This document shows, piece by piece, positions 42,557 to 47,974 of a DNA stretch of 64,000 nt. The stretch comes from Roseibium porphyridii (GTDB taxonomy: Bacteria; Pseudomonadota; Alphaproteobacteria; Rhizobiales; Stappiaceae), in NCBI RefSeq assembly GCF_026191725.2, contig NZ_CP120863.1, forward strand, positions 3,328,001 to 3,392,000. Direction: 5' to 3'. Both the position numbers and the translations under genes were made by a program. The notes under the pieces are model-generated. The model saw only the letters and a list, made by a program, of their open reading frames with translations, searched no databases and was not told the DNA's origin. The number at the start of each line of letters is the position of its first letter. The first letter of the stretch is position 1.

Positions 42557-45487
42557 ATGACCAAGCCCAAGACACCCAAGTCGGACAACAGCTGGAAAAA
42601 TGACCCGACCAAGGTGATCAGTGTCAGGGGTGCCCGTGAGCACAACCTCAAAGGCGTGGACCTGGACTTGCCTCGCGACCGGCTGATAGTCATGACCGGA
42701 CTATCGGGATCGGGCAAGTCGTCGCTTGCGTTCGATACGATATATGCCGAAGGGCAGCGGCGCTACGTTGAAAGTCTCTCCGCTTACGCACGTCAGTTCC
42801 TGGAAATGATGCAGAAGCCTGACGTGGATCAAATTGACGGTCTTTCGCCTGCCATTTCAATCGAGCAAAAGACAACGAGCCGTAACCCGCGCTCAACCGT
42901 AGGCACGGTCACTGAAATTTACGACTACATGCGCCTGTTGTTCGCACGGGTTGGTGTTCCCTATTCGCCGGCGACCGGACTGCCCATCGAAAGTCAAACT
43001 GTGAGCCAGATGGTCGACAGGGTCATGGATCTTGACGAAGGCGCAAGGCTTTATCTGCTTGCACCAATGGTGCGCGGCAGAAAGGGCGAATATCGTAAAG
43101 AGCTGGCCGAGCTGATGAAAAAGGGCTTCCAGCGCGTCAAGATTGACGGCACCTTCTACGAAATTGCGGATGCTCCGGCGCTCGACAAGAAATTCAAGCA
43201 TGACATCGATGTTGTCGTGGACCGTATAGTCGTGCGCGATGATATCGCGGGCAGACTTGCTGACTCTCTGGAGACCGCACTGAAACTCGCCGATGGCATC
43301 GCAATCGCGGAATTTGCCGATCAGGTTGAAGAAAACGGCGATCCGAAAAGACTGATTTTTTCTGAAAAATTTGCCTGCCCGGTATCCGGTTTCACTATTC
43401 CGGAGATAGAGCCGCGGCTCTTTTCCTTTAACAATCCGTTCGGCGCCTGCCCGACGTGTGACGGGCTTGGCACCACTTTGGCGTTCGAGGAAGACCTGGT
43501 TGTCCCTGATCATTCCCTCTCGCTACGAGAGGGCGCCGTCTTGCCCTGGGCAAAGACGGGATCGACATCGCCTTATTACACCCAGACGCTTGAGGCTCTT
43601 TGCGGACACTTCAAAGTTTCGATGGCAACTCCCTGGAAAGACCTCCCATCTGAGGTGCAGGACGCCATACTGCATGGGACAGGAAAAGACGCGATCGAAT
43701 TTGTCTATGACGATGGTGTGAGAAGCTATCGGACTGAAAAGACGTTCGAAGGCGTAATCGGTAACATCGAACGACGTTGGCGCGAAACCGAGAGCACATG
43801 GGTACGCGAAGAGCTCAGCCGGTTTCAATCAGACCATGCATGCCCGGCATGCAGTGGTTTTCGCCTGAAGCCAGAAGCATTGGCGGTCAAGATTGCCGGA
43901 AAACATATCGGTGAAATAACCGAGAATTCTATTCGACTTGCAAGTGACTGGTTTGAAGAGCTTCCTGCGCAACTGAATGAAAAACAAAGCGAAATCGCCG
44001 GTCGGATCTTGAAGGAAATCCGCGAGAGACTGAAATTTCTGAATGATGTCGGGTTGGAGTATCTGACACTTTCACGTGCTTCCGGGACCCTTTCCGGTGG
44101 CGAGAGCCAGCGTATCCGGCTGGCTTCGCAAATCGGCTCTGGGCTTACGGGTGTTCTTTATGTGCTGGACGAACCCTCAATTGGCCTTCATCAGCGAGAC
44201 AATGCCAGACTGCTGGAAACGCTGAAGCATCTGCGCGACCTCGGCAACACTGTCATCGTGGTTGAACACGATGAAGACGCTGTCCTTACGGCGGACTATG
44301 TTGTCGATGTCGGTCCAGGTGCTGGTGTTCATGGTGGTCAAGTGGTTGCGAAAGGCACCCCTGCCGAAGTCATGGCGAACCCGAAGTCCCTCACCGGTGA
44401 GTATTTGTCTGGCACACGCATGATTTCCAGGGCGGATGGACGACGCAAGATAAACAAGAAGCGGCAACTTTCGGTCAAAGGCGCGCGCGGAAACAATCTG
44501 AAAGACGTCAATGTGGACGTGCCGCTCAGTACGTTCACTTGCGTCACGGGTGTCTCCGGCGGTGGAAAATCGACCTTCCTGATAGACACCTTATATAAGG
44601 CCGCGGCACGTCGACTGAATGGTGCTCGCGACAACCCTGCTCCGCATGACCGGATCGAAGGGCTTGAGGTGCTGGACAAGGTGATCGATATCGATCAGTC
44701 CCCAATCGGACGAACGCCAAGATCGAATCCGGCCACCTATACCGGCGCATTCACGCCCATACGGGAATGGTTTGCCGGCATGCCCGAAGCAAAAGCACGT
44801 GGCTATCAACCCGGCAGGTTTTCGTTCAACGTCAAGGGCGGTCGCTGTGAAGCCTGTCAGGGCGATGGCGTCATAAAGATTGAGATGCATTTCCTGCCAG
44901 ATGTCTATGTCACCTGTGACGTTTGCCAAGGCAGACGTTACAACCGCGAAACGCTGGAAGTTGAATTCAAAGGCAAATCCATCGCCGATGTGCTCGATAT
45001 GACCGTTGAAGAGGCGGCAGAGTTCTTTGCAGCGGTCCCTGCAGTCCGGGACAAGATGGAGACGCTCGCAAGGGTCGGGCTCGGCTATATCAAGGTTGGT
45101 CAGCAGGCAACCACGCTCTCTGGAGGCGAAGCGCAGCGGGTCAAGCTCGCGAAAGAACTCTCAAAACGCTCCACGGGCCGCACGCTTTATATATTGGACG
45201 AGCCGACAACCGGTCTGCATTTCCATGATGTCGCCAAGCTGCTGGACGTTTTGCATGAGCTGGTCGATCAGGGGAACACGGTTCTCGTAATCGAACACAA
45301 TCTGGAAGTCATCAAGACGGCAGACTGGATCATAGATCTTGGTCCGGAAGGCGGAGACGGCGGTGGCACAATTGTGGCGACAGGGCGCCCCGAGGACGTG
45401 GCAGAAGCTGAACAAAGCTACACCGGTCAGTTTTTGCGCGAATTGTTGCAACGACGTCCGCAGCAAACTTCTGACGCAGCCGAATAA
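42557..45487 (+). CDS. uvrA: Excinuclease ABC subunit A
   Basis: A 976-residue ATPase that scans DNA for helix-distorting lesions with UvrB. It has two ABC modules: Walker [15 protein letters not shown] near residue 50 and [10 protein letters not shown] near 658, and signatures LSGGESQR and LSGGEAQR with Walker B segments [12 protein letters not shown] and [12 protein letters not shown]. Zinc-binding cysteines occur as CPTC and CPACSGF in the first half and CEACQGDG with [10 protein letters not shown] in the second. The length is normal. It is divergent from ssb; the next gene downstream is a small DUF1127 gene. Confidence 0.98.
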
Positions 45488-45517
45488 CGCCCTAACAGCG
45501 GATTGGCGTGACACACT

Positions 45518-45546
45518 CTTGAAATATGTGCACTGCACCCTATCTA
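45518..45546 (+). promoter_or_regulatory. Candidate RpoH-type (heat-shock sigma) promoter
   Basis: CTTGAAA at 45518-45524 and CCCTATCTA at 45538-45546 are 13 bases apart, close to the sigma-32 pattern CTTGAAA-N11-16-CCCCAT-T. It lies after uvrA and about 190 bases before the first DUF1127 gene, so the leader would be long. DUF1127/CcsR units in Rhodobacter are RpoH-controlled, which supports the reading. Confidence 0.45.
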
Positions 45547-45733
45547 TTAATTTGTTGATTTGCAGTGTGTTTTTTTAATCACACTGATTTCACCGAGCGA
45601 ATTTTTTTGCATTGCATCAAACGCATGCCTGTCATGCAGAGATGGCACTTCTTTTATTTCACTCGGTGAATTATATCATGGATCAACAACGGAGCGAGCG
45701 GTTGAGGCCACTCGCCGAATAAGGAACAAGAAG

Positions 45734-45883
45734 ATGTTTGATACTGTGCGACAGAAGTACAGCAACTGGGTGAGCTACCGCCGTGCGGTCGATGAGCTGT
45801 CTCGTCTTTCCAATCGCGAACTCACCGACCTCGGCATCAGCCGGAGCGATATTAAATTCGTCGCTCGCCGTCACTACGGCTAA
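45734..45883 (+). CDS. DUF1127 small basic protein, copy 1
   Basis: A 49-residue arginine-rich protein with the family core ELSRLSNRELTDLGISRSDIKF in pieces at residues 21-42. DUF1127 proteins of this size act as RNA-related regulators; the Rhodobacter homologue CcaF1 affects maturation and turnover of the sRNAs encoded just downstream. ATG 45734 follows AAGGAACAAGAAG; the longer open frame from 45560 is not conserved-looking. Three CCTCCTCCC hairpins follow at 45899-46012, so the gene and sRNA group form one unit. Confidence 0.85.
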   Translation: MFDTVRQKYSNWVSYRRAVDELSRLSNRELTDLGISRSDIKFVARRHYG

Positions 45884-45898
45884 CACAGTTTAGAATCG

Positions 45899-46012
45899 CG
45901 TCCCGAGGCATCCTCCTCCCAGCCAACGGACGTGTGACACGCAGGGCATCCTCCTCCCAGCCCTGTCACGTCGAAACGACGCCCGCCAGCACCTCCTCCC
46001 GCTGGCGGGCGT
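45899..46012 (+). ncRNA. CcsR/cuckoo-type sRNA group 1 (three CCTCCTCCC hairpins)
   Basis: Three consecutive stem-loops, each presenting CCTCCTCCC in the loop (45912-45920, 45950-45958, 45992-46000). Stems: CGTCC/GGACG with inner GGC/GCC (45899-45932); GTGACA/TGTCAC with inner GGGC/GCCC (45934-45969); and a 12-base perfect stem ACGCCCGCCAGC (45979-46012) that can also terminate. This matches the cuckoo RNA / CcsR arrangement known downstream of DUF1127 genes in Alphaproteobacteria. The loops are anti-Shine-Dalgarno and could bind mRNA ribosome sites. Confidence 0.85.
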
Positions 46013-46293
46013 TCGTTTGTCTAGCGGTCTGTTTCTTTCCCCTGTTTTAATTCCCACATCCTGCCTCTTCGCAACTGCGAAAGAGCGCAGCCAAAGCTAT
46101 GCGTCAAAAGGGTGTGCGCTAGGAATTCAAATGGTTTAAGAGCAAGTTGATCTGCAAAAAATGCATATCAGTCACGCGATTTTCCCTCTACCTCGCAGTG
46201 CACAATATCACTATCTTCAAAAACGTAAGAGATGAACGGGCCAGACGCCGATCCGCGGTGCCATGGCCACAGATATAGCGAAAGGCCTAAAAA

Positions 46294-46443
46294 ATGATCG
46301 ATAACGTTGTTCGCAAATACAACAACTGGAAACGCTTCCGTCAGACATATGACGAGCTGTCCAACCTGAGCAACCGGGAACTGAACGACCTGGGTATTGC
46401 TCGCGCAGACATCAGCCACTACGCACGTATGTCCGCGAAATAA
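46294..46443 (+). CDS. DUF1127 small basic protein, copy 2
   Basis: A 49-residue paralogue of the gene at 45734, with MIDNVVRKYNNW at the start and ELSNLSNRELNDLGIARADI in the core. Both copies have the same length and the same spacing of the conserved L-S-N-R-E-L-x-D-L-G-I motif, so this is a tandem duplication that has diverged. ATG 46294 follows a purine-rich AAAGGCCTAAAAA site. It is followed within seven bases by its own CCTCCTCCC hairpin group. The 280 bases upstream hold no other gene and presumably its promoter. Confidence 0.85.
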   Translation: MIDNVVRKYNNWKRFRQTYDELSNLSNRELNDLGIARADISHYARMSAK

Positions 46444-46449
46444 GTATAA

Positions 46450-46559
46450 GCAGTCTGGAGCTATCCTCCTCCCAAGTTCCTGACTGCAGACCTACGCCAA
46501 CCGCGTAGGATCAAAAAAAACGCCTGCCGGATCCTCCTCCCATCGGCAGGCGTTTTTTT
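46450..46559 (+). ncRNA. CcsR/cuckoo-type sRNA group 2 (two CCTCCTCCC hairpins)
   Basis: Two stem-loops with CCTCCTCCC in the loop (46465-46473 and 46533-46541). The first is closed by GCAGTC/GACTGC (46450-46487). The second has the perfect stem CGCCTGCCG/CGGCAGGCG flanked by A8 and T7 (46519-46559), a textbook terminator. Spacing and loop sequence match group 1, with less identical stems, so the loop is the conserved part. Confidence 0.85.
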
Positions 46560-46676
46560 GTGTCCGGATTTCAGAGAGCGTTCTTTCAAAAAACGTCCCA
46601 GACGCATTCTTGCTCAATTCTCAACGACCGGTCATGGGTCAACTGTTCCAAGAAGCTTGCAACTCCCGAAACTTGC

Positions 46677-47054
46677 TCAGATTTGCAGACGACTTCCGAA
46701 AATCCGGCGCTTCGGCAACGCGTCGAGATCAATTTCATCGATGCATCTGAGATTTATGGACCAACCGTCGAATGGGTCCAGACCAGCTGTTCTTTCCTCA
46801 AGCGTCAGCTGGCTGGGTCGCCGGAACGGCAAAACACCGCAAATTGGGCAGAAATAGTCGACAGCTGTTCTTGTTCCCCAACGATATTGGAGCAGGTCCG
46901 CCAAGTCGCATTTCAGTTGAAGCGCATCGTTGGACACCCTGAACGTCAGTAGCCCTCGTTTTCTGCATATTGTACAATCGCATTGACGTGCGTGATCGAT
47001 TGTTGCATCGACCAGAAACGCGACCCGACCGCAGTGACAAGAACCGCTATGCAA
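46677..47054 (-). CDS. GFA/CENP-V family zinc protein
   Basis: A 125-residue protein of the GFA (glutathione-dependent formaldehyde-activating-like) fold. The zinc ligands are in order: GSCHCGRVAF (residues 4-13), CDCTICRKRG (about 25-34) and YFCPICGVLPF (about 68-78). The family binds zinc and sometimes glutathione or small aldehydes; most members have no proven enzyme role. The ATG at 47054 is reasonable because SGSCHCGRV begins right after it. It is an isolated gene with no co-directional neighbour. Confidence 0.85.
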   Translation of the reverse strand: MHSGSCHCGRVAFLVDATIDHARQCDCTICRKRGLLTFRVSNDALQLKCDLADLLQYRWGTRTAVDYFCPICGVLPFRRPSQLTLEERTAGLDPFDGWSINLRCIDEIDLDALPKRRIFGSRLQI

Positions 47055-47299
47055 CCTTTCCTCCTGTGCTCGCCAGACCCGACATTTGAGTCCTGTGGCC
47101 TGAAAAAAGTGAAGAGCTCACGCCTTTGCGATGGAGCTTGGGCCATCCAATCTCAAAGAACGGCTAGCCAGCCTCAGCGGACTTATTCACTTGCACGCCT
47201 GATGCATTCGGCACTAGTTTCAGCCATGCGGACAAGGCGGGCTTCGGCAGAAAGTCTATTACGGTCCATGGGTTTAGCTGGTCCCCATTAAAAGGTTCG

Positions 47300-47974
47300 A
47301 TGCAGATGTTCAGTGTCTTTGGGAGCCGGAACGAACCACCAGAGATTTTTTCTTCCTACCCATCATTTAATCGGCCTTTTCCCGGCGACCCTGGCAAGTT
47401 GAGTATCGAGCAAGTCGAGGCCAACATAAAACATCTGTACCAAGTTCATGATGAGCGCTTAGAAATTTCAACCGCATTTTTGAATGACCATGGCATTGAA
47501 GTTTCAAATCTCGGATGGCGCGACTTTTTCCAGAAACTGGATGATATAGGTGTCTTGATCGAGCAGGTTCTGGTGCCTGTTTCCGTCGCTCATGCTCCCA
47601 GGCATCTCAGTAAGGTGAGCAAATCAGATTGGGTTGCGACCTTTGACGGGCGCAATATCATCTACTCGTTTCTGACAGACATCAGCATTCTATGTTTTCA
47701 CCATCTCAATTCTGCGTTTGACGGAAAACTGCGATGGGACACTTGGAGTGATCAATACCTTGATCCTGATATTGCAGAAGCAATAGATCTCTCAGTTGCA
47801 AATAGAATAGTGGTTTATGGACTGCACCTTAAATCAAGTGGTGTTGAAATGCCGGAAGACATTGAACTCCTGTTTTTTTGTACGGTACGTGCTGGCTGCA
47901 TGGATCTGCCAGCTTTCGCACGCCCACTCTCAGAAGTGTTCGGCGAGAAAATAGACGAGTTCGAGGCAAGATAA
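47300..47974 (+). CDS. Hypothetical protein, no recognised domain
   Basis: A 224-residue open frame with an acidic, soluble, mixed alpha/beta composition and no signal peptide or membrane span. I recognise no family. It contains aromatic-rich helices (DISILCFHHLNSAF) and a C-terminal cysteine pair (FFCTVRAGCMDL). ATG 47300 is followed two codons on by another ATG; neither has a strong ribosome site. A/T content is higher than in the flanking housekeeping genes, which may mean recent gain. The absence of a long competing frame makes it likely but not certain to be real. Confidence 0.55.
   Translation: MQMFSVFGSRNEPPEIFSSYPSFNRPFPGDPGKLSIEQVEANIKHLYQVHDERLEISTAFLNDHGIEVSNLGWRDFFQKLDDIGVLIEQVLVPVSVAHAPRHLSKVSKSDWVATFDGRNIIYSFLTDISILCFHHLNSAFDGKLRWDTWSDQYLDPDIAEAIDLSVANRIVVYGLHLKSSGVEMPEDIELLFFCTVRAGCMDLPAFARPLSEVFGEKIDEFEAR

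Follow-up and report, generated by a model that had tools for sequence, protein, structure and literature searches.

Tandem DUF1127 genes followed by ar14 (cuckoo-type) RNAs, with LsrB/VtlR-type boxes upstream, in Roseibium porphyridii

In the 5.94 Mb genome of Roseibium porphyridii two short DUF1127 genes stand in tandem, each with a set of hairpins behind it, which raises the question of what kind of system is present here in duplicate and whether its two copies are controlled differently. An earlier note, made from the sequence alone, had proposed a tandem duplication of a gene-plus-RNA unit of the CcsR/cuckoo type with two differently regulated inputs. The locus was analysed within a window of 64,000 nucleotides (contig NZ_CP120863.1, positions 3,328,001 to 3,392,000), in which the following features were located or predicted; coordinates are those of the window.

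45613..45635, + strand: LsrB/VtlR-type box of unit 1, TGCA-N6-GCAT (45613-45626) overlapping GCAT-N3-TG-N3-T (45623-45635)
45671..45676, + strand: TTATAT, predicted -10 element of unit 1; a TATAT block is shared by most of 44 genomes
45734..45883, + strand: DUF1127 gene 1 (49 aa); PF06568, 57.6 bits; codon periodicity
45892..46018, + strand: ar14 sRNA 1 (Rfam match 45892-46017); RF02344, 61.7 bits; fold; covariation
45897-45934, 45935-45973 and 45974-46018, + strand: hairpins of sRNA 1, with CCTCCTCCC in all three loops
46153..46166, + strand: LsrB/VtlR-type box of unit 2, TGCA-N6-GCAT
46211..46216, + strand: predicted -10 element of unit 2 (CTATCT); CTAT.T conserved in the alignment
46231..46293, + strand: conserved leader of gene 2, with a GGCCA/TGGCC hairpin (46239-46243 with 46264-46268)
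46280-46287, + strand: Shine-Dalgarno sequence of gene 2, GAAAGGCC, which can pair instead with GGGCC (46238-46242)
46294..46443, + strand: DUF1127 gene 2 (49 aa); PF06568, 53.5 bits; codon periodicity
46446..46559, + strand: ar14 sRNA 2 (Rfam match 46446-46558); RF02344, 59.7 bits; fold; loops across the genus
46450-46487, 46489-46512 and 46514-46559, + strand: hairpins of sRNA 2, with CCTCCTCCC in loops 1 and 3 only

Both of the 49-codon paralogues reported in the earlier note are present at this place. Their PF06568 matches lie above the cut-off of 23.3 bits, and the encoded proteins are 55 % identical to each other. Among relatives, identity at third codon positions (0.53 in gene 1 and 0.64 in gene 2) is below that at first and second positions (0.84-0.86) and therefore both genes are regarded as coding; 40 of the 44 sequences per gene entered this comparison, G001, G013, G025 and G044 having been dropped. 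The closest named record to protein 1, among the best 80 of 178 relatives, is that of Labrenzia sp. THAF82 (100 % over 49 aa).

Each gene lies directly 5′ of an RNA of the ar14 family (RF02344), and the order of DUF1127 gene then RNA is thus found twice, in agreement with the proposed tandem duplication of the unit. A covariance search for cuckoo-type RNAs, as had been suggested, placed both RNAs above the ar14 gathering score of 58.8 bits; they are the only two matches above threshold in an Rfam scan of the whole window, and no further ar14 match was found in the whole genome at E up to 0.001. A short DUF1127 gene followed directly by CcsR-like RNAs is the arrangement reported for CcaF1-CcsR and CIN1 (PMC10253847), and the assignment of these RNAs to the CcsR/cuckoo type is upheld.

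All five copies of CCTCCTCCC in the window lie at the tandem, where 0.37 would be expected and none of 100 shuffles reached five, and every one of them is unpaired in a loop in the predicted folds. Both folds are better than those of shuffled sequences (z -6.2 for RNA 1 and z -9.4 for RNA 2; 0 of 200 shuffles as good for either). Five stem-loops, three and two, had been counted previously. Five hairpins do carry the motif, but the folds give six, three in each RNA, the middle one of RNA 2 (46489-46512) being without it, and the supposed difference in hairpin number between the units falls away. The loops differ instead, since CCUCCUCCC, which characterizes each hairpin of an ar14/cuckoo RNA, is found in three of three hairpins of RNA 1 and in two of three of RNA 2.

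Matches to ar14 at E up to 0.001 are present in 44 of the 45 genomes of the genus, 36 of them above the gathering score, and at least two matches lie within 2.5 kb in 41 (counted from the listing). As to the exceptions, G011 has one match, G019 and G043 have their other matches elsewhere, and G033, an assembly of 680 contigs, has none. The locus was read in 44 genomes, and in all 44 RNA 1 has three exact 9-mer loops. When its stems are scored on the alignment from which the structure was itself derived, 98.8 % of the cells in 31 pairs are paired and 19 of the pairs are changed on both sides, neither value being reached in 500 shuffles; controls in which the structure was slid along the alignment gave at most 50.2 % paired and at most seven pairs changed on both sides. 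Further pair types were not above shuffles (193 of 500 as high).

RNA 2 is less constant. In the 42 genomes counted (G013 and G044, with second genes that have no clear counterpart, were left out) the exact 9-mer is found twice in 27, once in five and not at all in ten, whereas its core CCTCCC is found twice in 38, at similar offsets, three times in one, once in one and never in two. The automatic consensus is limited to the terminator stem (12 pairs, eight changed on both sides) because the 5′ part aligns poorly, and mean column identity is 49 % in unit 2 versus 73 % in unit 1. The earlier note had held that stems conserved without their loops would speak against its reading. Unit 1 is the opposite case, with invariant loops on covarying stems; in unit 2 the exact loop has been lost once or twice in 15 of the 42 genomes, and the description of ultraconserved loops on variable stems fits RNA 2 in part.

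If the hairpins were ordinary terminators or mRNA-protecting ends, with the loop motif incidental, this would suit the terminator-like T run after the final hairpin of RNA 2 and the broken run after that of RNA 1; a sigma-70/terminator scan, in which loops are limited to 8 nt, found the terminator of neither RNA. The upstream hairpins of both RNAs, however, have no T runs, CCTCCTCCC is in large excess over expectation, and the loops of RNA 1 stay the same while its stems change. Because the loops are conserved, this explanation is contradicted and is scarcely credible. It is less far-fetched, although still unlikely, that unit 2 is a duplicate in decay, with a mere terminator-bearing 3′ end for an RNA, and that all of the sRNA work falls to unit 1. 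The genomes with fewer exact loops and the lower column identity of unit 2 would agree with decay, but the core persists at two similarly placed sites in most genomes, the terminator stem of RNA 2 covaries, its Rfam match is above threshold and protein 2 is under coding constraint.

Across the family, ar14 was found in 85 of 87 genomes at E up to 0.001 (61 above the gathering score). Leaving genus g6 apart, 69 of the 70 family loci read have at least two DUF1127 genes, G046 having one, and the comparison across Stappiaceae, which the earlier note had proposed, thus supports retention of the tandem. These 70 loci had been retrieved through their ar14 match, and at each of them loops come after the first DUF1127 gene; second genes are not always followed by exact motifs. 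As the pair is conserved among relatives, the tandem is to be seen as a further instance of a known arrangement, not as a new system. Among the literature matches listed, the locus is unreported in Roseibium, Labrenzia and Stappia, and the tandem may already be listed in the 2021 CcaF1 paper and in the founding paper on the cuckoo RNA family, reportedly that of Reinkensmeier and Giegerich in 2015. In a quick protein tree (49 columns), 34 of the 38 distinct Roseibium unit 2 rows form one group (SH-aLRT 98), which also holds two long-branched g3 rows, the other four lying outside; this tree does not resolve whether the duplication predates the family. In five of 14 genomes of g7, which is Stappia judging by the contig of L154, three DUF1127 genes alternate with loops (L062, L088, L060, L056 and L089), and at L068, L077, L014 and L092 nine to 12 copies of CCTCCTCCC follow in a row behind one DUF1127 gene.

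Genus g6 (G057-G072) is different. No DUF1127 gene was found in the 4-5 kb loci, each centred on an ar14 match, of ten of its 16 genomes. Six g6 genomes were searched whole. Each has one or two DUF1127 genes, all of them away from any ar14 match; five of the six carry two to four dispersed ar14 matches without a DUF1127 neighbour, none of which reaches the gathering score and some of which only just pass the E limit. From these five genomes it follows that the RNA can persist without the DUF1127 protein.

Several known systems share parts of this organization. The ar14/NfeR1 RNAs of Sinorhizobium and its relatives (RF02344) likewise have three hairpins, CCUCCUCCC loops, variable stems and TGCA-N6-GCAT upstream; unlike them, the Roseibium RNAs form two tandem units with the DUF1127 genes that they follow, and the middle hairpin of RNA 2 lacks the motif. 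That one motif-less hairpin also sets RNA 2 apart from the cuckoo RNAs SmelA075/SmelA099, which are described as neighbouring hairpins that have CCUCCUCCC in their loops and differ in their stems (PMC3927594). In CcaF1-CcsR1-4/CIN1 of Rhodobacter sphaeroides and other Alphaproteobacteria a short DUF1127 gene also precedes CcsR-like sRNAs, but the CcaF1 locus is reported to have one gene, of 71 aa, with four sRNAs and an RpoHI/RpoHII promoter (PMC10253847), whereas Roseibium has two 49-aa genes with one RNA each. The Rhodobacter system is further characterized by co-transcription of gene and RNAs and by RNase E processing with help from the DUF1127 protein. Mesorhizobium and Aminobacter also have tandem DUF1127 genes with several copies of CCTCCTCCC downstream; among 77 named loci from the best 80 of 178 relatives, however, these two genera mostly have two adjoining genes and then several loops, whereas in Roseibium, Stappia and Pannonibacter each gene is mostly followed by its own loops before the next gene comes. 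In the VtlR system of Brucella and Agrobacterium a LysR-type regulator is reported to activate small DUF1127 proteins and anti-Shine-Dalgarno sRNAs (AbcR), Brucella VtlR being the orthologue of LsrB and activating three DUF1127 genes and AbcR2 (PMC12595884). Those accounts treat the protein genes and the sRNAs as distinct targets of the regulator, whereas in Roseibium protein and sRNA share a unit.

Upstream of the two Roseibium genes the boxes are of the same kind. TGCA-N6-GCAT and GCAT-N3-TG-N3-T are published LsrB/VtlR motifs (PMC10746234, PMC8844928, PMC7486931), the former being the LsrB motif of NfeR1 (PMC10746234). By sequence match TGCA-N6-GCAT is present before both units, starting 58 nt before the predicted -10 element in each, and GCAT-N3-TG-N3-T is missing from the unit 2 upstream region. 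Transcription would start near 45683 in unit 1 and 46223 in unit 2, which would put the unit 1 boxes at about -70 to -48, with the GCAT box taking up roughly -60 to -48; in S. meliloti the LsrB site published for PabcR1 is at -61 to -49 (PMC8844928). Within 300 nt upstream, the exact TGCA-N6-GCAT is found for unit 1 in 42 and for unit 2 in 24 of 44 Roseibium genomes, compared with 9 of 1760 single-base shuffles, the related genomes in these counts not being independent; the unit 2 box is exact at 138-141 nt before the ATG in 22 of the 44. Outside Roseibium the exact box is less common (13 of 26 first units, eight of 25 second units and none of five third units). In the window, TGCA-N6-GCAT occurs seven times (3.4 expected; 3 of 100 shuffles as high) and GCAT-N3-TG-N3-T 15 times (10.5 expected; 12 of 100 as high). 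Since neither motif is rare in the window by itself and no promoter was returned for 45000-47500, on either strand, by a general sigma-70 scan, the case for LsrB is built on the place of the boxes and their conservation.

A candidate regulator is encoded in the host genome by a LysR gene that adjoins trxB, as lsrB presumably does in rhizobia, and that matches 9HH1 at 431 bits. The entry 9HH1 is deposited as A. tumefaciens LsrB (PMC11975290). Because both units look like LsrB targets, the suggestion of two different inputs is unsupported. Of the 21 VtlR-type boxes GCAT-N3-TG-N3-TGCA in the genome, one (L009:1352; G000:C1:299648-299663) begins about 113 nt before the start of another DUF1127 gene. 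Elsewhere, some 350 nt 3′ of the LsrB-like gene, there is a copy of CCTCCTCCC that by eye looks like the loop of a hairpin (L106:3027-3035, - strand; G000:C1:1976526-1976534). In S. meliloti this is the place of the AbcR sRNAs; L106 has no Rfam match above threshold.

A rival reading would have the units CcsR-like and under RpoH, responding to heat and singlet oxygen, and providing two different inputs. This has the precedent of the RpoHI/RpoHII promoter of CcaF1-CcsR in Rhodobacter (PMC10253847), and an RpoH-like match, CTTGAAA..CCCTATCT, was noticed by eye at 45518-45545. This single match is absent from the conserved blocks of the 44-genome alignment and was rejected as a promoter; the LsrB-type boxes before both units are conserved instead, and control by RpoH is considered improbable. 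A stronger contender concerns the proteins. The function of DUF1127 is disputed, CcaF1 being reported to bind RNA and promote CcsR maturation (PMC10253847), whereas small DUF1127 proteins of A. tumefaciens are reported to act through PhoR, which is bound there, with CcaF1 and YjiS complementing the defect (PMC12501420). If what DUF1127 proteins act on is proteins, sensor kinases or others, their linkage to the sRNA would reflect shared regulation only and no protein-RNA partnership. The ar14 matches that stand apart from any DUF1127 gene in five of the six g6 genomes searched would agree with this, but the report on CcaF1 and the loops behind the first DUF1127 gene at all 70 loci read outside g6, retrieved as these were through ar14, point the other way. 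This possibility is given somewhat less than even chances, and it is compatible with the rest of the explanation preferred here.

That explanation, which we consider probable, is of two LsrB-activated mRNAs with 3′ ends that yield anti-Shine-Dalgarno sRNAs, which silence other mRNAs. A LysR-type LsrB/VtlR regulator probably activates each of the neighbouring units from its own promoter. Each mRNA would encode a small DUF1127 protein and have as its 3′ end an ar14 (cuckoo) sRNA, which is probably cut out of it. The CCUCCUCCC loops would then block translation of other mRNAs by masking their GGAGG-type Shine-Dalgarno sequences, in analogy to NfeR1 in Sinorhizobium, for which such silencing is reported, as is the loss of ntrB silencing when its three loops are mutated (PMC10746234). 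Unit 2 would be a paralogue that has diverged, having fewer loops and a promoter and leader of its own. On this explanation LsrB/VtlR control, DUF1127 small proteins and anti-Shine-Dalgarno sRNAs, which have mostly been studied apart, meet in one locus, of which most of a bacterial family retains two copies. There is also a natural comparison, as protein and RNA are coupled in both Roseibium units, while ar14-like RNAs without a DUF1127 neighbour are kept by five of the six g6 genomes searched; a direct action of DUF1127 proteins on the neighbouring sRNA therefore becomes directly testable.

What differs between units 1 and 2 is the leader of gene 2. It is conserved in most Roseibium (40 of 44 aligned, a few of these diverged) and could be matched to nothing known, and a simple pattern search of the fetched loci showed no such stretch before DUF1127 genes of other genera. 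Three GGCC repeats, the last within the Shine-Dalgarno sequence, would allow two exclusive folds. In an alignment without G001, G012, G013 and G044 (of 44), the hairpin is 95.4 % paired with two of ten pairs changed on both sides (15 of 500 shuffles reach this; 0 to 3 such pairs when slid), and the alternative pairing is 92.6 % paired with none. This covariation is weak, there being little of it because the sequence hardly varies. Fold energies did not decide between the two forms, and the leader in the host genome has no clear advantage in folding over shuffled sequences (z -1.4; 16 of 200 as good). The possibility of an upstream reading frame within it (ATG at 46232 in the host genome) was considered and rejected, as several genomes lack the ATG and the frame is broken by a one-base gap. 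The repeats are no more than suggestive of a switch between two folds, and it is rather doubtful that the leader is a new Roseibium cis-acting RNA in which the hairpin frees the Shine-Dalgarno sequence and GGGCC:GGCCU hides it, making DUF1127 protein 2 tunable while the sRNA is still made. If this were true, the units would differ not in transcriptional input but in coupling, protein and sRNA being made together from unit 1 and uncoupled in unit 2, and the leader is a concrete candidate for such an extra layer of control.

With regard to targets, a perfect 9-nt complement of the loop is found at 22 other places in the genome. In 11 of the 20 such sites that were fetched, some start codon follows at a distance of 4-15 nt, and in three of these the frame is open to the end of the stretch; these 9-nt sites show no sign of enrichment at starts, although shorter pairing would suffice for silencing. 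Targeting by the loops of the DUF1127 genes' own Shine-Dalgarno sequences was also considered and appears unlikely: within 20 nt before the ATG of Roseibium units 1 and 2 the longest perfect complement is 3-4 nt in 85 of 88 sites and 5 nt in one, compared with 6 or 7 nt before the start of three of 33 long frames in the window. Outside the locus, CCTCCTCCC is on the minus strand in six of seven cases below 2.1 Mb and on the plus strand in 14 of 15 above 3.5 Mb, a pattern that a G-rich word with a preference for the leading strand would produce. Elsewhere in the window, there are three plus-strand copies of the 13-mer GCATTACTGCCCT in less than 1 kb (17811, 18417 and 18720), and therefore a repeat may be present there.
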